Shown here piece after piece: positions 7,902 through 16,792 of a stretch of 22,718 bases of DNA; the first letter of the stretch is position 1; every line of letters starts with the position of its first letter. The notes under the pieces are model-generated. The model searched no databases, was not told the DNA's origin, and was given only the letters and a program-made list of their open reading frames with translations. The position numbers and the translations under genes are program-made. Origin of the DNA: a virus. The DNA lies in the IMG/VR virus record IMGVR_UViG_3300002835_001171, positions 1-22,718 of that record; one strand, given 5' to 3'.

Positions 7902-8741
7902 ATGACCCCAAACAACCCCCTGAGACAGTATTTTAGACAACCTGCAATTTATATTCGGCTGCCCAGTCAAGGGCAATTTTACCCGCCTGGCACATTGACT
8001 CTGACAGAAACAGGCGAGCTGCCTGTGTACCCAATGACTGCCATTGACGAAATCATGTATAAAACCCCAGATGCATTATTCAATGGACAAGCTACAATCA
8101 ATGTCATACAAAGTTGTGTACCAAATATTACCAATGCATGGGGAGTACCTGCCATGGATGTAGACACATTGTTAGTGGCCATACGTATTGCCAGCTACGG
8201 GCACGAAATGGAATTTGGTACAAAATGTCCTAAATGTGCATCTGAAAGCGATCGATCACTGGATTTACGCACAGTCATGGATGCTATTCGAGCGCCTGAT
8301 TACAGCGCCAGTGTACAGTCAGGTGACATGGAAATTTATTTCCGACCCATGAACTACAAAAATCTCAACGACAACAATCAATTGCAATATGAAAATCAAC
8401 GCATGTTACAGATGTTGCCAGACACCAAATTTGAAGACACTGAAAAAATGAATGCGCTCACTGCTGCTTTGAAAAGAATCACTGACATCACTGTTACTGC
8501 ATTGGCACAAAGTATAGCCACAGTCAAAACTCCCAGTGCCATGGTCTCAGAACCTGAATACATTGAAGACTTTCTTAAAAATTGCGATCGCAGCTTGTTT
8601 ACACAGATTAGAGATCATATTATCAAATTAAAATCACAAGCTGAAATACAACCAATGACACTGACCTGTGACGAATGTGCTCACACGTATGAACAATCTA
8701 TAGCACTGGACATGTCAAATTTTTTCGCACCCGCCTCCTAG
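7902..8741 (+). CDS. 26: Baseplate hub subunit gp26 (T4 baseplate family)
   Basis: 279-residue member of the T4 baseplate gp26 family. Characteristic strings include the N-terminal RLPSQGQFYPPG, PMTAIDEIMYKTPDALFNG, then VIQSCVP and MDVDTLLVAIRIASYGHEME. Two CxxC pairs (Cys109/Cys112 in KCPKC, and Cys256/Cys259 in TCDEC) suggest a zinc-ribbon pair at the ends of a central helical insert; zinc binding is inferred. gp26 helps build the central hub of the T4 baseplate. ATG 7902 has AGGA 7 bases upstream. It is the first gene of the plus-strand operon and is followed by gp51, the neighbour it also has in T4. Confidence 0.9.
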   Translation: MTPNNPLRQYFRQPAIYIRLPSQGQFYPPGTLTLTETGELPVYPMTAIDEIMYKTPDALFNGQATINVIQSCVPNITNAWGVPAMDVDTLLVAIRIASYGHEMEFGTKCPKCASESDRSLDLRTVMDAIRAPDYSASVQSGDMEIYFRPMNYKNLNDNNQLQYENQRMLQMLPDTKFEDTEKMNALTAALKRITDITVTALAQSIATVKTPSAMVSEPEYIEDFLKNCDRSLFTQIRDHIIKLKSQAEIQPMTLTCDECAHTYEQSIALDMSNFFAPAS

Positions 8742-8779: not shown

Positions 8780-8956
8780 ATGGATAAAGAAATTAAAAAT
8801 ATTAGACAGGAGGCAATGCAAATGGCCTGGTACATGAGAGGTGGTCTCAGTTACGAACAAGCCTTGCAACTCAGTAGCTCTGAAAGAGAAATTGTCAGTG
8901 CACTAATCAAGGAAAACATGGAGACCACCAAAAAAAGCGGCCTCCCATTTTTTTAA
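8780..8956 (+). CDS. 51: Baseplate hub assembly catalyst gp51
   Basis: 58-residue small protein directly after gp26. It begins MDKEIKNIRQEAMQMAWYMR, continues with GGLSYEQALQLSSSEREIV, and ends with ENMETTKKSGLPFF, a C-terminal pattern typical of gp51 in aquatic T4-like phages. In T4, gp51 is needed for hub assembly and is considered catalytic rather than structural. ATG 8780 is the first start in frame; the same frame is open upstream into the end of gp26 without an ATG, and no good RBS is visible, so translational coupling to gp26 is likely. The stop at 8956 is one base before the ATG of the next gene. Confidence 0.85.
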   Translation: MDKEIKNIRQEAMQMAWYMRGGLSYEQALQLSSSEREIVSALIKENMETTKKSGLPFF

Positions 8957-8957
8957 T

Positions 8958-9461
8958 ATGCTATATCAAGATCAAGTACGCAAAGACATATTACATTGGC
9001 TGGAAAACTTTGTTGAAAAGCCACACCCTGCACTAGGCGGCTGGGCACCTTGCCCGTATGCACGTAGGGCCAGACTGGACAATGATTTCGAAATTAGACT
9101 GGGATTGGCGCCTATACATGATTTGATAAAAATCAGCAAGCACGGTCTTGGTGGTAAAAGTGTTATTATCATTGTGTACAAAGCTGATCAAGTATCACAT
9201 GAATCGTTCAGCAACGATATTGAAATAGCCAACAGAGAATTTTTGTTGCCAAATAACCTGTTGGCACTGGAAGATCACCCTGATGATGTAGAAATGGTAA
9301 ATGGAGTTTGCATGAATCAAGGCACTTATGCATTGGCACTGGTGCAAAACCTTGATGATCTCAATGCCAAAGCCCACCAGATGGCCAACAAAGGATTCTA
9401 TGACACGTGGCCAGAAGCATACTTAAAACCATTATTTAAACACAGGAAAGATCCACGATGA
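8958..9461 (+). CDS. Conserved protein of unknown function, first gene of accessory cassette
   Basis: 167-residue soluble protein without signal peptide or membrane segment. I do not assign a function. Notable motifs are HPALGGWAPCPYARRARL (residues ~23-40) with a Cys in a PCPYA context, a β-strand-like GKSVIIIVYK segment, LALEDHPDD, and a C-terminal GTYALALVQNL followed by the helical KGFYDTWPEAYLKPLFKHR. The pattern of conserved-looking Pro/Cys/Arg and a repeated α/β layout suggests a compact domain resembling conserved hypothetical proteins of marine phages and bacteria. It starts one base after gp51, and its stop overlaps the amidinotransferase start by four bases (ATGA), so the two are translationally coupled and probably act together. 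Confidence 0.8.
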   Translation: MLYQDQVRKDILHWLENFVEKPHPALGGWAPCPYARRARLDNDFEIRLGLAPIHDLIKISKHGLGGKSVIIIVYKADQVSHESFSNDIEIANREFLLPNNLLALEDHPDDVEMVNGVCMNQGTYALALVQNLDDLNAKAHQMANKGFYDTWPEAYLKPLFKHRKDPR

Positions 9462-10597
9462 CATATTCAGTATACCAACACTGGGACCCATTGAAAGTCT
9501 GTGTAGTAGGACGCAGCTATGCACCTGAATTTTATTCTTGGATCACAGTGCCTCATGTGAGAACATTATTTGAAAAAATTGCTATCGAGACTGAGGAAGA
9601 TTATCAAGCCATTATAAAAAAACTACAAGAGTTTGGTGTAGAAGTACTGAGACCTAATTTGCCAACAGATGCGTTTGCAAACGGAAAATATGTCCCACCA
9701 CCGATGTGTCCGAGAGATTATATGGTGATGACTGGCGACAAATTTTACGAAAACTATAGTTTTGCTTTTAAAAAATCATACCAGAATGTCAAAGACTTGT
9801 CCTGGCCAGACTGTAGTTCAATGGAAGAGTTCGTATTGTTACCCAACAGTATACAACAAGAATGCAACATTAACCATTGGTTCAACGAATACCAAAAAAT
9901 TTATTCCACATGTGATCATATTTTTGATCACATACGCCAACAAGGAAATACAATTAAGTCACACCATTATGACACAGACTTGTTAAACGGAGCACAAATA
10001 TCACGCATTGGCAAAGATTTGTATTTTGGAACAAACTCTTATGATCAAGACACAACCAATTATAAAAAATTTATTGACCAAGAATTTTTAAACACCAGAA
10101 ATCACATTGTCAACACCGGCGGACATGGTGATGGAACCTACTGTCCTGTATGCCCTGGATTAATCATAAGTCTTTATGATGTGCCCACTTACGCAAACAC
10201 CTTCCCAGGATGGGAAGTAGTGTATCTTCCTGGGCAGAGTTGGAACAAAGTACAACCATTTTTAAATCTTAAACGTAAAAACAAAGGCAAGTGGTGGATA
10301 CCAGGTTTTGAACATGACCAAGATGTAATTAATATTATTGAAAAATGGTTAGGACATTGGACTGGATATGTTGAAGAAACAGTGTTTGATGTCAACATGT
10401 TGATCATTGACCCTAAAAATGTTATGGTGTTTAACTACAACAAACAAGTATTTGATGCATTGGATCGATATGGTATTACTCCGCATGTAGTTCCGTTTAG
10501 ACACAGATATTTCTGGGATGGAGGAATACATTGTGTAACCAGTGATCTTCATAGAGAAGGTGTGATGCAAGATTACTTTCCAGGAAGGAATCAATGA
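9458..10597 (+). CDS. Glycine amidinotransferase-like enzyme (pentein fold)
   Basis: 379-residue protein of the amidinotransferase family, whose classic members move the amidino group from arginine to glycine (giving guanidinoacetate and ornithine) or to inosamine phosphates. Visible signatures are an N-terminal LKVCVVGRSYAPEFY, a CPRDYMVMTGDKFYE block (PRD region ~residues 84-98), YDTDLLNGAQISRIGKDLYFG with Asp174, NTGGHGDGTYC with His223, and GGIHCVTSDLHR with Cys359. Asp174, His223 and Cys359 are the natural catalytic triad; the Asp-to-His spacing of 49 equals that of human AGAT (Asp254, His303), while His-to-Cys is longer (136 versus 104). All triad residues appear intact, so it is likely active; the acceptor is unknown. 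It overlaps its neighbours by ATGA on both sides and lies in an operon with baseplate genes. Confidence 0.85.
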   Translation: MTYSVYQHWDPLKVCVVGRSYAPEFYSWITVPHVRTLFEKIAIETEEDYQAIIKKLQEFGVEVLRPNLPTDAFANGKYVPPPMCPRDYMVMTGDKFYENYSFAFKKSYQNVKDLSWPDCSSMEEFVLLPNSIQQECNINHWFNEYQKIYSTCDHIFDHIRQQGNTIKSHHYDTDLLNGAQISRIGKDLYFGTNSYDQDTTNYKKFIDQEFLNTRNHIVNTGGHGDGTYCPVCPGLIISLYDVPTYANTFPGWEVVYLPGQSWNKVQPFLNLKRKNKGKWWIPGFEHDQDVINIIEKWLGHWTGYVEETVFDVNMLIIDPKNVMVFNYNKQVFDALDRYGITPHVVPFRHRYFWDGGIHCVTSDLHREGVMQDYFPGRNQ

Positions 10598-11037
10598 CAT
10601 ATCAATTTGCCAGAATTGACCTCAGTAAAACTGAATATACACCTAGTGTACACTGGGAATATATCCAAGATCGCAGTGAAGATACATTAAAAAAATTAGA
10701 TGATATCTACAGGACCTACACTATTTACAAACACTTTGCTAGTGTAATGCCTATGTTTCACAGTAGATATTTGGATCCAATGGCAGATGTCATTGGCTAC
10801 TACGATAACAACAAACTTGTGGCATGGAGTTTGATCCGGCGTTTTGATAACCATAATGCCCTGTGCGATCAATTTGCATGGACATATCATCAACCTCGTT
10901 CAAGATTAGGAATTGAAACGATGAAAACAGAATGTGCTATCTACAAGGAGCGAGGATTTAAATACCTGTATCTTGAACAAGCACATCTGTACAAATCTGA
11001 AATTGATGGATTTGAAATAATAGGACCACTGGAGTAA
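10594..11037 (+). CDS. GNAT-like protein, possibly related to the arginyl-tRNA-transferase C-terminal fold
   Basis: 147-residue soluble protein. The core runs ADVIGYYDNNKLVAWSLIRR (β-strands with a turn), then DQFAWTYHQPRSRLGIETMK and YKERGFKYLYLEQ. This strand-turn-strand / helix / LYL-E order resembles GNAT acyltransferase folds, and especially the C-terminal half of Ate1/FemX-type aminoacyl transferases, where xYxxPxxRLGI and a following YxYLG/YLYL strand recur. I do not see a classical Q/RxxGxG/A acetyl-CoA loop, so the donor may not be acetyl-CoA. The start overlaps the amidinotransferase stop by four bases; the stop is followed after two bases by the next gene. Function is inferred from fold-like pattern only. 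Confidence 0.75.
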   Translation: MTYQFARIDLSKTEYTPSVHWEYIQDRSEDTLKKLDDIYRTYTIYKHFASVMPMFHSRYLDPMADVIGYYDNNKLVAWSLIRRFDNHNALCDQFAWTYHQPRSRLGIETMKTECAIYKERGFKYLYLEQAHLYKSEIDGFEIIGPLE

Positions 11038-11039
11038 CA

Positions 11040-11375
11040 ATGGATTTATACACAATTTGGGCAGACAAAGAGGGCGATATTTCTGACCTTGACTGGGTCA
11101 ACGGAATGAAAAGTTTTTTTGATCATTTGATTGCTGAAGGCCGAATGGAAAGCTATAGAATCACAAGATGCAAAATGGGATTCCGCAGCATTGCTAACAT
11201 GCCCGAATGGATGATCATCATGGAATTTAAAGACATGGCTCAGATGGACATGGCATTCAAACGAGTAGCACCGCTCGAAGGCGAACTCGAAGAGAAACAC
11301 AAATCGTTTAATCAATTTGTCAGTGGCAACATACAGCATGCGCTCTTCAGAGACTGGCCTGATCAAAATCTATGA
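11040..11375 (+). CDS. DUF6614-like small protein
   Basis: 111-residue protein. The pattern is an N-terminal MDLYTIWADKEGDISDLDWV, a helix with FFDHLIAEGRMESYRITRCK, MGFRSIANMPEWMIIMEFKD (β-strand), QMDMAFKRVAP (helix), and a C-terminal HALFRDWPDQ. This β-α-β-β-α-β order with 'GxxxSYRxTRxKxGF…' and 'D.AQ.D.AF' agrees with the DUF6614 family, small ferredoxin-like proteins common in marine bacteria; assignment is from memory of the pattern. It has a good RBS (GGAG, spacing 6) at the end of the preceding gene, and an ATGA overlap with the SGNH hydrolase. No catalytic residue can be nominated. Confidence 0.75.
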   Translation: MDLYTIWADKEGDISDLDWVNGMKSFFDHLIAEGRMESYRITRCKMGFRSIANMPEWMIIMEFKDMAQMDMAFKRVAPLEGELEEKHKSFNQFVSGNIQHALFRDWPDQNL

Positions 11376-12157
11376 AATACACACTTTTTGCAGGTTGTTC
11401 ATACACAGCCGGCGACGGATTTGAATTGAAAAAAACTGAACCGTCTTTGTGGGTTAATCAGGTATATCATAAATGTTTTTCGCACACTACCCAACTTAAC
11501 GTGAGTCGAGGTGGCCGATCCAATGCAGGTATTTTTCAAGACACAGTAAAAGTATTATTAACGTATCCGGTTGAATATGCCATAGTCGAATGGACCAGTA
11601 TGCCGCGCTATGAGTTAGAATTAGGTTTTGAAACTTACACTACCAGACAATGTTTTATGCCAAATCTCAAATGCCATACCCATAACTTAAATGATATAAA
11701 CTACACCAGTGCTTATTTGACTTCAATTTGCGAGAGGTTTACATCACTGGCACACGATTACTACGAAATATCAAATCTTATTGAGTATGTTAATACAATT
11801 GTTAATCTTGCACAATTAACAAAAACCAAAGTCTTTTTTATCAATGGATTGTGTCCTTGGGACAACAATTTTTTTATTAAAAAAGAATCTGTGCTTCCAT
11901 CTGAATATACCACGTATACTCAAAAACTATTAAACACCAACAGTCGAGATGATACCGAAGTGTTTCAGTTATACAATACCATGCATGATAATTTTATTAA
12001 TTTGGGTGGCATACACGAACTACTATGGTTAAATTTATATAATTCGATGCTATCAAGCAAAATAGATGTAAACGATGATCTTGCTCATCCTGGCATTAAC
12101 TCTAATAATCTTTATTTTGATTTATTTTCTAAGCTATTAACCAAACAACTACTTTAA
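11372..12157 (+). CDS. SGNH/GDSL-like hydrolase
   Basis: 261-residue protein with SGNH-hydrolase blocks. Block I is FAGCSYTAGDG with candidate nucleophile Ser10, block II is NVSRGGRSNAG (oxyanion Gly/Asn), and block V is NDDLAHPGINSNN with Asp236 and His239. Such enzymes hydrolyse esters on lipids, polysaccharides or small molecules; related proteins are frequent in aquatic phages, where the substrate is unknown. There is no signal peptide, so it should act in the cytoplasm or in the virion. It is the last gene of the plus-strand operon, joined to the preceding gene by a four-base overlap and followed at once by a double-hairpin terminator that begins at the stop codon. Confidence 0.82.
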   Translation: MKYTLFAGCSYTAGDGFELKKTEPSLWVNQVYHKCFSHTTQLNVSRGGRSNAGIFQDTVKVLLTYPVEYAIVEWTSMPRYELELGFETYTTRQCFMPNLKCHTHNLNDINYTSAYLTSICERFTSLAHDYYEISNLIEYVNTIVNLAQLTKTKVFFINGLCPWDNNFFIKKESVLPSEYTTYTQKLLNTNSRDDTEVFQLYNTMHDNFINLGGIHELLWLNLYNSMLSSKIDVNDDLAHPGINSNNLYFDLFSKLLTKQLL

Positions 12158-12216
12158 GAACTTTGCGCTGCAAAGTTCTATTGATTTCACTTCGTTCATC
12201 AATTTTGTTTTTCTTT
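12157..12216 (+). terminator. Double-hairpin intrinsic terminator of the gp26-SGNH operon
   Basis: AGAACTTTGC (12157-12166) and GCAAAGTTCT (12170-12179) form a perfect 10-bp stem with loop GCT. A second weaker stem, ATTGAT…ATCAAT (12180-12203), follows directly and leads into TTTTGTTTTTCTTT, a U-rich tail for plus-strand transcripts. The first hairpin overlaps the last base of the SGNH stop codon. It lies between convergent operons. Confidence 0.75.
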
Positions 12217-13051: not shown

Positions 13052-13897
13052 TTATGTTAGTTCTATTTCTCGTTGCCATTGTTGATCAAATGCTGTGCCC
13101 ATACTGGTTTGCCCACACACTGCGGAACAGATAGGGTCCTGTGTAGGAATAGCATCAATATCTGTAATAAAGTCCTGTTGTCTTGTGCCTAACCAACAAC
13201 AGGGTACCAAGTTGCCTTTTGCATCAATAAATGCACTTTTTTCTCTAAGGGCGTAGCAATTTATTGCAGTTGATTGTGTTTGAATTGGTTGCCATCCAGT
13301 TGGGAATTGCAACGTTTCTGTAAATGGACGTTTTGAAACTTTGGCACGAAACCAGCTGAACCCCATGTCTCTAGCCATTTGTTCGCATTTGTCGACCTGG
13401 TGTTGATTGTGTCTATACACCAACATATCCCAGTGTGCAGAGCCGCCGGCCGAAACAAATGATTCAACGTTGGCCATTAGTTTATCCCAGTTTACATTTT
13501 TACGATATACGCCATTAGTGTCTGCCAGCCCGTCAATACTGAACACCACATAATCTTGCGGCTGAGTCATGAGTTGGGCTAGGCCGTGCCACCAGAATGT
13601 GCTTTGTATAGCGCCATTGGTATTCATACCCAGTGTAATGTTGTTGTTGATAGACCTGAACCTATTGAATATGTCCAGCGTGTGTTTACCAGCAGCCGGA
13701 TCTCCGTAGTTGCCGCACATAAACATTTTGTCTAATTGGCGTATTTTATCTTCATTGATCACATTGAGAATTTGACTCATAGAAAGATGATGCTGACGAT
13801 CTTTTCTAAAGTTTGTGTCAGTTTCTCTAGCACACAACGGGCATGCGGCCTGGCATACGTCCGTGGGTTCGAGATGTAGAACTTTTAAGTCACGCAA
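13052..13897 (-). CDS. Radical SAM protein with C-terminal cysteine (SPASM-like) region
   Basis: Radical SAM enzyme of about 281 residues. The [4Fe-4S]-binding motif CQAACPLC (CxxxCxxC) follows VLHLEPTDV near the N-terminus. GNYGDPAAGKH, LGMNTNGA and VVFSIDGLADTN are the usual strand motifs of the partial TIM barrel. A C-terminal Cys-rich part (NCYALREKSAFIDAKGNLVPCC…ICSAVC, not contiguous) suggests an auxiliary cluster or SPASM/twitch domain, common in peptide-modifying members. The substrate is unknown. Start choice: an ATG at 14017 or 13978 would overlap gp46 by 88-128 bases, whereas TTG 13897 (or 13903) gives an 8-14 base overlap and puts the cluster motif at the usual distance from the start; this is uncertain. 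The gene follows gp46 in the recombination operon. Confidence 0.82.
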   Translation of the reverse strand: MRDLKVLHLEPTDVCQAACPLCARETDTNFRKDRQHHLSMSQILNVINEDKIRQLDKMFMCGNYGDPAAGKHTLDIFNRFRSINNNITLGMNTNGAIQSTFWWHGLAQLMTQPQDYVVFSIDGLADTNGVYRKNVNWDKLMANVESFVSAGGSAHWDMLVYRHNQHQVDKCEQMARDMGFSWFRAKVSKRPFTETLQFPTGWQPIQTQSTAINCYALREKSAFIDAKGNLVPCCWLGTRQQDFITDIDAIPTQDPICSAVCGQTSMGTAFDQQWQREIELT

Positions 13898-15653
13898 GAT
13901 CAATGTCCGTGTTGTAGCTAGTAAAGCCGTTTTCTTTGATAACTTTGAGAATGTTCTCCACACGTCCGGCCAGTTCATCGCGATGTGAAACAAGCCAGAT
14001 TGACTTGTGGCGTTCACGACTCATTTTCTTCAGCAAAGCCAGTGCATTCTCTACACCTTGTGTGTCTAAACCGCTGTCGATCATTTCATCAACAAACAAC
14101 AAATTGATAGGCTGGTATAAACTTTCCCAGACATCACGGAATGCCCAGCTCATACTCAATATCAATCTGTTGCGTTCGCCACGCGATAAATTATCAAAAT
14201 CTAATTCACGCCCTAGTTCTTCAATGCTGACTGTTAAATCGTTTTGGAATAACACTGTGTGCGGTAATCCAATACGATCTAGATAGTGTGTGAGCCTTAT
14301 ATTAAGATAACTTAAATTTTGCTCAATGATTTTTTTGCGAATAAAACTGTCTTTGCTGGTCAATAGTTTAAGCAAGAAATCTTGATGCTCTTGCAATCTT
14401 GTGAGTTCATTGAGTGTTTCATAATCAACTGTTTGCAGTGCCTGTCCTTGCATATCTTCAATTTGCTCACCGTATGGATCTACTTCTGCTGACTTGTCTG
14501 CAATTTGTTTTTGTAGATTTTCTAGTGTGGCACGGTGCTGAATGGCATCCTCTTCTTTGTCATAGAACATTTTAGGAGGCTTGCCTAACACACCTAATCC
14601 TTTGTGTGTGGCTTCCAGCTGCATGAGATCATGTGTGTACATTTCGGCATTGGCATGAGCTGTGGCCAGATCTTGTTGTTTACTGGCCAGTACTTCTTCA
14701 TGTTTTTCGTCATGCAGATCTTGCCCGCAGGCATGACAAGTATGTTTTTCCAATGCAGCTACGTCTTTGACTATCTTGGCAATTGTTTTTTCTTCTCGAC
14801 CTAAATCAAGTTTAATTCGACTGATAGAGCCGGCTAGGTCATTGATATCTTTGCGTTTTTGATCCCAAAGTTTGTGATCCTTGTGCGCTTGTATTTCAAC
14901 ATCAATATCAATTTCTTTTAACGCAGTTAGTGCGTTGGTAAGATTGTTAATATCTTCTGTGTGTTTGTTAGACCATAAAGTCTGGCGGCGTTTTATGGCT
15001 TCAATTTGTTCTTCGATTCTTTTGTTAGCTTCGGTAACTGCACGAATTCTAAATTCTTCTTGAGTTATTGCATCTTTAGTTTCTCGATTAAGTTCTTTAA
15101 TCCTGTCAGCTCGCTCGCTGAGCATGGTAATGCCTAACAACTGTTCAATGATGGTGCGCTGGTCGTTGGCCTTTAGACTCAGGAACGGTTCTGTGTAAGT
15201 GTTAAGTGCCAGGATATGTTTGAACATATCGTGACTTAGACCTAGAGTTTGTTCAATGGCATCCTGTGTTTCTCTGCTGTCGCCCTGTGCTTCGTCAGTG
15301 ACCATTTGCTCTTGATTGTTCACAAAGAATCTTAACACATTGGGTTTGCGACCTCGTTCAATTTTATAATCTCGGCCATTGCAAACAAAGTCTAAACTGA
15401 CCAACATGTTCTTCCCATTGGTTTTGTTTACTAAATTATCTTTGCGAATGTTTGAAAGAGCATTGCCATACAATGCATAACTTAAAGCATTGATGATAGT
15501 GGTCTTACCTGTGCCGTTACGGCTTCCATCTCCGCCTAGATCTAGATTTTCGCCTAGCACCAGTGTGAGATCACTACGATCAAAGTCAATGGCCTGTGTG
15601 GCATTGCCCACACTCATGAAATTTCGGACAGTAAGATTTTTAATGTGTATCAA
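13890..15653 (-). CDS. 46: Recombination endonuclease subunit gp46 (Rad50/SbcC-like ATPase)
   Basis: 587-residue SMC-type ATPase that pairs with gp47 to resect double-strand ends for recombination-dependent replication. Walker A GSRNGTGKTT is at 43-52, after a LGENLDLGGDG insertion typical of aquatic phage gp46. Long coiled-coil arms span ~190-300 and ~320-440, with a zinc-hook CHAC (Cys306/Cys309) at the apex. The ABC signature is LSRGERNR (489-496), Walker B INLLFVDEMID (516-526), D-loop SGLD and switch His557. The start is TTG 15653, giving a TTGA overlap with the stop of the upstream gene; the next residues, IHIKNLTVRNFMSVG, are the expected N-terminus, so the non-ATG start is well supported. 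The length is close to T4 gp46 (560 aa). Confidence 0.93.
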   Translation of the reverse strand: MIHIKNLTVRNFMSVGNATQAIDFDRSDLTLVLGENLDLGGDGSRNGTGKTTIINALSYALYGNALSNIRKDNLVNKTNGKNMLVSLDFVCNGRDYKIERGRKPNVLRFFVNNQEQMVTDEAQGDSRETQDAIEQTLGLSHDMFKHILALNTYTEPFLSLKANDQRTIIEQLLGITMLSERADRIKELNRETKDAITQEEFRIRAVTEANKRIEEQIEAIKRRQTLWSNKHTEDINNLTNALTALKEIDIDVEIQAHKDHKLWDQKRKDINDLAGSISRIKLDLGREEKTIAKIVKDVAALEKHTCHACGQDLHDEKHEEVLASKQQDLATAHANAEMYTHDLMQLEATHKGLGVLGKPPKMFYDKEEDAIQHRATLENLQKQIADKSAEVDPYGEQIEDMQGQALQTVDYETLNELTRLQEHQDFLLKLLTSKDSFIRKKIIEQNLSYLNIRLTHYLDRIGLPHTVLFQNDLTVSIEELGRELDFDNLSRGERNRLILSMSWAFRDVWESLYQPINLLFVDEMIDSGLDTQGVENALALLKKMSRERHKSIWLVSHRDELAGRVENILKVIKENGFTSYNTDIDLA

Positions 15654-16792
15654 ATGGTGTCTAGCCTATGGTTTAAAATAGTATTTGAAAATTCTTGAAC
15701 ATAAAACCTGTGGTTAAATTCAACTGTATCCTGTACACTATACATTAAATCTTTCAACTGGTCAATTGATAGTGCGCCAATTTCCTTGACAATTTTTATC
15801 ACTGCTCGTATGCGATGGTTCGGATCTTGAATTAAATCATAGTCTTCGTTCCATAGATGATCAAAAGTTTTAAATCCTAATTTTTTTATTTGAGCTAAAG
15901 ATCCAGGTGCACCTAAAATTACAAAAGGTCTTTTATACAAGATTGCTCGAAATGTTTTTTCTGTTAGATACGGATACGGGTATTGTAATACAGTCTCAAC
16001 CGACACGTATAAAAATGCCTGCTGAACCGACGGAATATCCCACCGATTTATATTTGGTGCACCGGTGATTGTTGTATCTTTCCAATTGTTGGAAAAAAAC
16101 CAATGGTGTCGATTAAAAACGTCTTGCCCAGCAACATCTATGCCAAATCGATCATTAATGTTAGTAAACGGAGTCGTTGTTACAAATATCAAATCAGTTG
16201 GCAGGTTTGTAGTGTCGCTGCTAATCTTTGTTGTGTTTGAAAGTGTGGCCAGGGCGGAATTAAAATGCCAGGACAGAATACCACAGTCTAGCAACTGGTG
16301 TTCTCGAAGATAGCACAAAAACATGACCCGATGCAATCGTTTGGCACCATTTAAACAGATGTAGGATTTAACAATTTTGTCAACATTGATATCAATTGAT
16401 TGAGGATTTGGATCAGTTTGTTTCAGTAAATAGTTATTTTCAAATATTTGCATGCCAAACTCGTCGGTTACTCCTTGATTTATTTCGCTTGAAATACCAT
16501 AGTGATTGGTCAGCAACAGGCAAAAGCACACAGATATGTCCAAATGATTTAAACAGGTCATGAGATTGCTGATAATAAATCCATCTCCGCTGCTTCCATA
16601 GTAAAAGTCTGTGTCATAATGATAAATTAAAATTCGATCATTTGGATCATAATGATCTTTATATGCCAAAGACAAACTCTGGTACAATCGGCCAGGATCA
16701 TTTGCTAAATTATGTAAATTAATTTCGGCTATAATGTTATATTTTGCTTGTAGCCTAGCATAAACCATTGGCCATAGAGGATATGTCAGCAT
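15650..16792 (-). CDS. Glycosyltransferase-like protein inserted between gp47 and gp46
   Basis: 380-residue soluble protein. An N-terminal half with ILIYHYDTDFYYG holds a DxD-like Asp60-Thr-Asp62. A middle motif NGAKRLHRVMFLCYLREHQLLD (split: NGAKRLHR, then FLCYLREHQLLDCGILSW) precedes a conserved-looking C-terminal block with VSVETVLQYPYPYLTEKTFR, KRPFVILGAPGSLAQIKKLG and FKTFDHLWNEDYD. The TEKTF…kPFvilG.pg.l…L…GF.TF…YD pattern recurs in a glycosyltransferase-like family of marine phages and bacteria. The exact activity is not identifiable. It shares a four-base TTGA overlap with gp46, so translation is coupled. In T4, α-glucosyltransferase lies between gp47 and gp55, an intriguing but unproven positional parallel. 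RBS upstream of ATG 16792 is weak. Confidence 0.6.
   Translation of the reverse strand: MLTYPLWPMVYARLQAKYNIIAEINLHNLANDPGRLYQSLSLAYKDHYDPNDRILIYHYDTDFYYGSSGDGFIISNLMTCLNHLDISVCFCLLLTNHYGISSEINQGVTDEFGMQIFENNYLLKQTDPNPQSIDINVDKIVKSYICLNGAKRLHRVMFLCYLREHQLLDCGILSWHFNSALATLSNTTKISSDTTNLPTDLIFVTTTPFTNINDRFGIDVAGQDVFNRHHWFFSNNWKDTTITGAPNINRWDIPSVQQAFLYVSVETVLQYPYPYLTEKTFRAILYKRPFVILGAPGSLAQIKKLGFKTFDHLWNEDYDLIQDPNHRIRAVIKIVKEIGALSIDQLKDLMYSVQDTVEFNHRFYVQEFSNTILNHRLDTI

Follow-up and report, generated by a model that had tools for sequence, protein, structure and literature searches.

Genes and features of the locus

The window, that is, the whole stretch of DNA that was analyzed, is a 22.7-kb virus record (22,718 nucleotides) from a jumbo T4-like myovirus, whose portal protein is ~50% identical to those of Sinorhizobium phage Phosso and Agrobacterium phage Atu_ph07. 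It contains an operon-like run of genes, of which the baseplate hub gene is the first, with the following features.

7902..8741, + strand: baseplate hub protein, gp26/T4_baseplate type (PF12322, 2.7e-16; phrog_150, 1e-16)
8780..8956, + strand: gp51-like small protein, named by position; no family match in Pfam or PHROGs
8958..9461, + strand: gene A (core), remotely DUF6875/DUF1415-like (weak DUF6875 match; phrog_10325)
9458..10597, + strand: gene B (optional), amidinotransferase fold with a KDxSWP insertion (HsvA and AGAT matches)
9770..9895, + strand: KDxSWP motif inside B, about residues 105-146 (profile search over loci)
10594..11037, + strand: gene C (core), stand-alone GNAT of the ATE_C type (family-level ATE_C match)
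11040..11375, + strand: gene D (core), DUF6614 (PF20319)
11372..12157, + strand: gene E (optional), SGNH-hydrolase-like (motifs only)
12157..12179, + strand: hairpin, probable transcription terminator (pattern scan, 10 pairs)

An earlier note on this DNA had described five closely joined genes after gp51, followed by a terminator, and the ORFs and sequence agree with it: the gp51-like gene and A are separated by 1 base, A and B overlap by ATGA, as do B and C, C and D are separated by 2 bases, and D and E again share an ATGA overlap. Its naming of the upstream gene as a baseplate hub is likewise borne out by the matches listed above. The hairpin at 12157-12179 (AGAACTTTGC-GCT-GCAAAGTTCT) is weak evidence by itself, since five hairpins of this kind were found against 3.2 expected in shuffles. 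The late expression that the note expected finds no backing in a T4-type late promoter: the sequence TATAAATA, with at most one mismatch, occurs at 34 sites compared with 29 expected, and no convincing site of this type lies upstream of the hub gene on the + strand. An Rfam search of the window returned no match.

Two further genes of the window, both on the − strand, differ between related phages. One (13052-14017) encodes a radical SAM protein (PF04055, 1.3e-9), its ORF sharing 128 bases with the end of g46, and the other (15650-16792) encodes a 380-aa protein with no confident family match.

A, C, and D are inherited as a unit

A search of viral contigs anchored on B retrieved 194 relatives, and among the best 80 of these 194, A, C, and D join B in two distinct genome backgrounds. 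Clustering of the ORFs over 36 hub-context loci and 14 loci of other context identified A (34 + 14 loci), B (36 + 14), C (35 + 14), and D (35 + 8) as the sole families broadly common to both. Because this search was anchored on B, it was repeated with C, D, and A as anchors, each of which yielded at least 570 confirmed viral contigs. Counting only loci whose flanks reach 2.5 kb or more in each direction, C is accompanied by A in 51/51 loci, by D in 48/51, by B in 12/51, and by E in 8/51; D by A and by C in 40/40 and by B in 7/40; and A by C and by D in 34/34 and by B in 7/34. The three genes are also contiguous: where B does not intervene, about 190 loci have A and C overlapping or abutting, and in about 170 (>165) the gap between C and D is no more than ~50 bases. 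Together, these counts and the contiguity define A-C-D as the core, with B and E as optional members. Both here and in the hub-anchored sample below, each search was limited to its 80 closest relatives, so that the loci are mutually related and do not represent independent events.

The same picture emerges when the hub gene serves as the anchor. Among 60 viral contigs with at least 2.6 kb downstream of the hub gene, A, C, and D are all present in 40, all absent from 20, and never found as a partial set. The claim that a co-inherited accessory cassette is fused to the baseplate-hub operon is therefore upheld for A, C, and D, which are concordant in 60/60 loci, a gene order well beyond chance, while the claim that the five genes form a single unit fails, B being present in 6/60 and E in 8/60. 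The earlier note had proposed looking for the five families together in other genomes; A, C, and D do co-occur elsewhere, with B and E as optional additions. The earlier interpretation is thus partly supported: the coupled accessory cassette holds, but its membership was misjudged.

The block lies directly after gp26/gp51 in 197/207 loci with enough upstream sequence, and it is also found without hub genes, in unrelated gene contexts. The gp51-like gene is kept with or without the block (28/81 loci by tblastn). Four empty sites were read, and in three of them gp51 is followed by the convergent segE and g46 with the block genes absent between; in the fourth (L481), other genes come after segE, and the ORF list shows no gp51. 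By annotation and HMM search, the cultured jumbo phages Atu_ph07, Phosso, and Munch also lack the three block genes at the hub site, and neither C nor D found a match in 50,697 phage records. The all-or-none pattern in 60 loci, the empty sites, and the cultured phages without the block identify it as an accessory insertion: the three genes come and go as a set, and a clade of jumbo myoviruses has them inserted between gp51 and the convergent segE/g46. Its position at the hub may reflect one ancient insertion.

Variants of the block were also seen. In L298 (2990-3691, − strand), L299, and about 18 similar loci, C, still located between A and D, is a divergent 233-aa version encoded on the other strand, so that the three-gene block is kept even where C has been inverted or replaced. 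In L074 (5297-11933), A-C-B occurs without D, flanked by several 2OG-Fe(II) oxygenase-like proteins (named by eye).

The core proteins

A carries an invariant CPxA motif together with invariant Asn92 and His107. DUF6875 (PF21780) is matched by 32/35 A members, the best at 6.6e-4, but all below or near the cut-off; the window protein scores 18.3 bits against a curated cut-off of 24.5. Profile–profile alignment (hhalign) of A with DUF1415 gave a probability of 78 over the N-terminal 44 columns, and phrog_10325 was matched at 6e-9. The predicted structure of A (pLDDT 95.7) has no match in the PDB at E ≤ 0.001 and resembles three uncharacterized viral models (TM 0.74-0.86); PDB profile searches with A and D gave nothing convincing. 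An HMM search found A homologs in the cultured phages HMO-2011, CRP-810, Syn1, and S-SCSM2R, where they neighbor a structural gene (HMO-2011), baseplate wedge genes (Syn1 and S-SCSM2R), and a 2OG-Fe(II) oxygenase gene (CRP-810 and S-SCSM2R). One paper mentioning DUF6875 reportedly concerns a terpenoid cluster. The idea that A is the separate ATE_N half of a split arginyltransferase, raised by the PCPY common to both, was rejected, as hhalign gave a probability of 2.9 and no ATE fold was matched.

C had been called a GNAT-like, probable acyl/aminoacyl transferase; the GNAT assignment stands and can be refined to the ATE_C type. ATE_C is matched by 26/37 C members, the best at 9.8e-7, the window protein itself falling below the curated cut-off (E 0.042), and alignment with the GNAT domain of bacterial Bpt proteins gave E 5.5e-5 and a probability of 66 (hhalign). 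No copy of C was found in 299 Pseudomonadota genomes, in a search run without a positive control.

D, which the note had termed DUF6614-like, is a full member of that family (PF20319, 2.7e-22; 79.4 bits against a curated cut-off of 25). Its predicted structure is of moderate confidence (pLDDT 77) and matches dimeric α/β-barrel proteins such as olivetolic acid cyclase (Foldseek, 2.4e-4). The phage copies of D are 69-93% identical to the window protein. A literature search found no paper on DUF6614. Glutamine synthetase-like and agmatinase-like genes beside DUF6614 in L082 were considered as a clue to function and discarded, as these neighbors did not recur.

The optional genes

B matches HsvA (8e-8) and AGAT (about 1e-6), which supports an amidinotransferase fold. 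Cys359, His223, and Asp225 are found in 72/72 aligned homologs, so that the catalytic Cys and the His-x-Asp are retained, and Asp87 is kept in essentially all. The position aligned with the acid of the catalytic triad, Asp254 in AGAT and Asp179 in StrB, is Asn in 50/72, Pro in 10/72, and Asp in only 5/72, the alignment here being by motif and not by structure. With the triad acid replaced, amidino transfer from arginine is not assured; of the proposed arginine-dependent amidinotransferase, the fold stands and the arginine dependence does not necessarily follow.

B occupies several slots: it may lie between A and C, between C and D, or downstream of D, or stand by itself at another place, and 31 loci have B but none of A, C, and D. 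These slot labels interleave in a tree of 103 B-like rows (8 of them motif-only matches, and with some long branches flagged), where well-supported branches require at least 10 changes for the slot between C and D and 8 for that between A and C, both counts being approximate. B is present in 10/10 listed non-hub cassettes, loci that come mostly from the B-anchored search. A recombination hot spot might account for how often B is present at all.

Several loci with B have distinctive surroundings. In L011 and L019, where B stands alone, glycosyltransferase-, epimerase-, and methyltransferase-like genes were recognized by eye. In L066 (183-8906) and L068 (2610-10726), three amidinotransferase paralogs lie in one cluster and one of them keeps the canonical DAAN acid, so that two types of amidinotransferase coexist there; alongside are a weak Asp/Asn β-hydroxylase match and, upstream, a nucleotide-sugar-dehydrogenase-like gene. 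DpdA/TGT-like, FolE-like, and QueD-like genes (by eye) lie near the cassette or B in L003 (294-6115), L004 (903-2603), and L019 (1181-2752), hinting that these phages may carry out 7-deazaguanine DNA modification.

The KDxSWP insertion of B is a motif of 42 residues (YxxVKDxSWPxxxSxxEFxxLPxxIxxEC) that also occurs in 21 phage proteins other than B, at the N-terminus, in the middle, or at the C-terminus. Once the motif is masked, these 21 proteins fall into nine clusters; the motif is common to B and at least eight other, apparently unrelated, groups of phage proteins, including GDSL/SGNH-like (L466) and methyltransferase-like (L011) ones, both named by eye. Carriers include L011:6665-7570, L011:4376-5206, L016:862-2106, L007:10675-11523 (− strand), L058:2651-3493, L205:7483-8196, L466:6928-7737 (− strand), and L469:79-837. 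Five of these (the two of L011 and those of L016, L007, and L058) were scanned and gave no convincing Pfam match and no PHROG match. A pattern scan for the motif gave only 11 stretches because its codons were fixed, and it is no census. It has the look of a docking motif or mobile domain used by enzymes of aquatic phages.

E has the motifs GCSYTAGDG near its N-terminus and DDLAHPG near its C-terminus, in keeping with the SGNH hydrolase that had been proposed, although no SGNH family was matched at E ≤ 1 in Pfam, PHROGs, or NCBIfam. Its occurrence is sporadic: in the C-anchored loci it lies near the block in 8/51, often on the other strand.

Discussion

The present analysis identifies A-C-D as a strictly co-inherited unit, without a named function, in hundreds of phage contigs from lakes and the sea. 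It brings together DUF6614, a DUF6875/1415-like family, and a stand-alone ATE-like GNAT as a single system open to testing; the block and its empty site provide natural presence/absence pairs at an identical locus. Judged from sequence, A-C-D appears to be a new gene module assembled from known enzyme superfamilies, with a putative function.

We tentatively favor, at somewhat short of an even chance, the reading that A-C-D is a mobile accessory modification block of aquatic phages in which C is the group transferase and B an optional tailoring enzyme of guanidino type. In such a block, C would transfer an aminoacyl or acyl group to an acceptor amine, with a charged tRNA as the probable donor; D, with its dimeric α/β-barrel fold, and A, with its invariant Cys, His, and Asn, would act on the same product; and B, where present, may tailor it, acting on the new amine or through arginine chemistry. 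The likeliest acceptor would be a virion protein or a surface glycan, a guess from gene context. In favor of this reading are co-inheritance, with agreement of the searches anchored on C, D, and A, the empty sites, contiguity, the occurrence in unrelated contexts, the ATE_C type of C, the fold of D, the repeated joining of B to the block, and the relatives of A that cultured phages carry next to baseplate or structural genes and 2OG oxygenases. Against this stand the weak ATE_C match of the window C, the many donors that GNATs use, the moderate confidence of the D model, the close relationship of the loci, and the possible hot spot for B. A more specific version, which we regard as rather unlikely, is that A-C-D(-B) is an undescribed modification system of phages: a minimal GNAT that lacks ATE_N and depends on aminoacyl-tRNA, a protein of a fold unmatched in the PDB, and a DUF6614 protein would together install on a virion protein, glycan, or nucleobase a group that is aminoacylated and, in some of the phages, guanidinylated.

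The five-enzyme pathway envisaged earlier, centered on an arginine-dependent amidinotransferase and leading to a guanidino small molecule or a polymer modification, would account for the five contiguous genes of the window with their overlapping starts and stops, for L005 and L007, which likewise hold all five in a row, for the fold of B, and for its presence in every listed non-hub cassette. However, B is absent from 54/60 and E from 52/60 hub loci, and the triad acid of B is not conserved, which weakens this pathway as a general account; since the invariant core is A-C-D, a pathway centered on the amidinotransferase is not the general function, and we consider it unlikely. That B is instead a neutral passenger functionally unconnected with A-C-D, spread by recombination at a hot spot next to the homing-type segE, is rather doubtful: B does move between slots, and the GIY-YIG gene segE is nearby in 28/81 loci, but in many lineages B has inserted exactly between A, C, and D or immediately behind them, with near-overlapping junctions kept, and it is found in all listed non-hub cassettes.

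Two other proposals concern the core itself. A host-takeover or antidefense module, in which C would tag host proteins by an N-degron-like aminoacylation with A and D as adaptors, would fit the accessory, all-or-none nature of the block and its occurrence in several contexts, traits of many host-interaction modules, as well as the resemblance of C to N-end-rule transferases; yet the ATE_N domain is missing, and conservation of D as strong as 69-93% identity is unusual for arms-race genes, which makes this proposal quite unlikely. That A, C, and D are baseplate assembly or structural factors and not enzymes of a modification pathway seems very unlikely, even though the block so regularly follows gp26/gp51 (197/207 loci) and relatives of A adjoin baseplate wedge genes in Syn1 and S-SCSM2R, because one third of the hub-anchored loci lack all three genes, the block occurs without hub genes, and C and D have enzyme-type folds.

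The modification block that we favor can be compared with several known systems. Virus-encoded creatine-pathway genes have been described from the ocean, namely GAMT, with GATM discussed (PMC11360552), and a phage glycine amidinotransferase has been reported (PMC8226683). As far as the available text of these two sources goes, virus-encoded guanidino metabolism is proposed there from sequence, as it is here, but the systems are single genes and partners such as A-C-D are not mentioned, unlike the block described here.

With AGAT, StrB, and HsvA, B has in common the fold region, an RD motif, the His-x-Asp, and the C-terminal catalytic Cys; it differs in its triad acid, mostly Asn or Pro, and in the KDxSWP insertion, which was not seen in this analysis in other members of the fold family. 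The W..(x)..CPxA motif region of A is common to DUF6875 and DUF1415 (PF07209), but A remains below the Pfam cut-off and the likeness is convincing over the N-terminal part only. C matches the C-terminal GNAT domain of the ATE1/Bpt arginyl/leucyl-tRNA-protein transferases (PF04377), including the final YK...F...E.LG, whereas the 147-aa C lacks an ATE_N domain and A does not supply a separate one. DUF6614 is also bacterial, with a copy above the cut-off in 20/385 alphaproteobacterial genomes; in contrast to these bacterial copies, which have no conserved neighbors (17 loci), the phage DUF6614 protein, D, is always accompanied by A and C in the loci tested.
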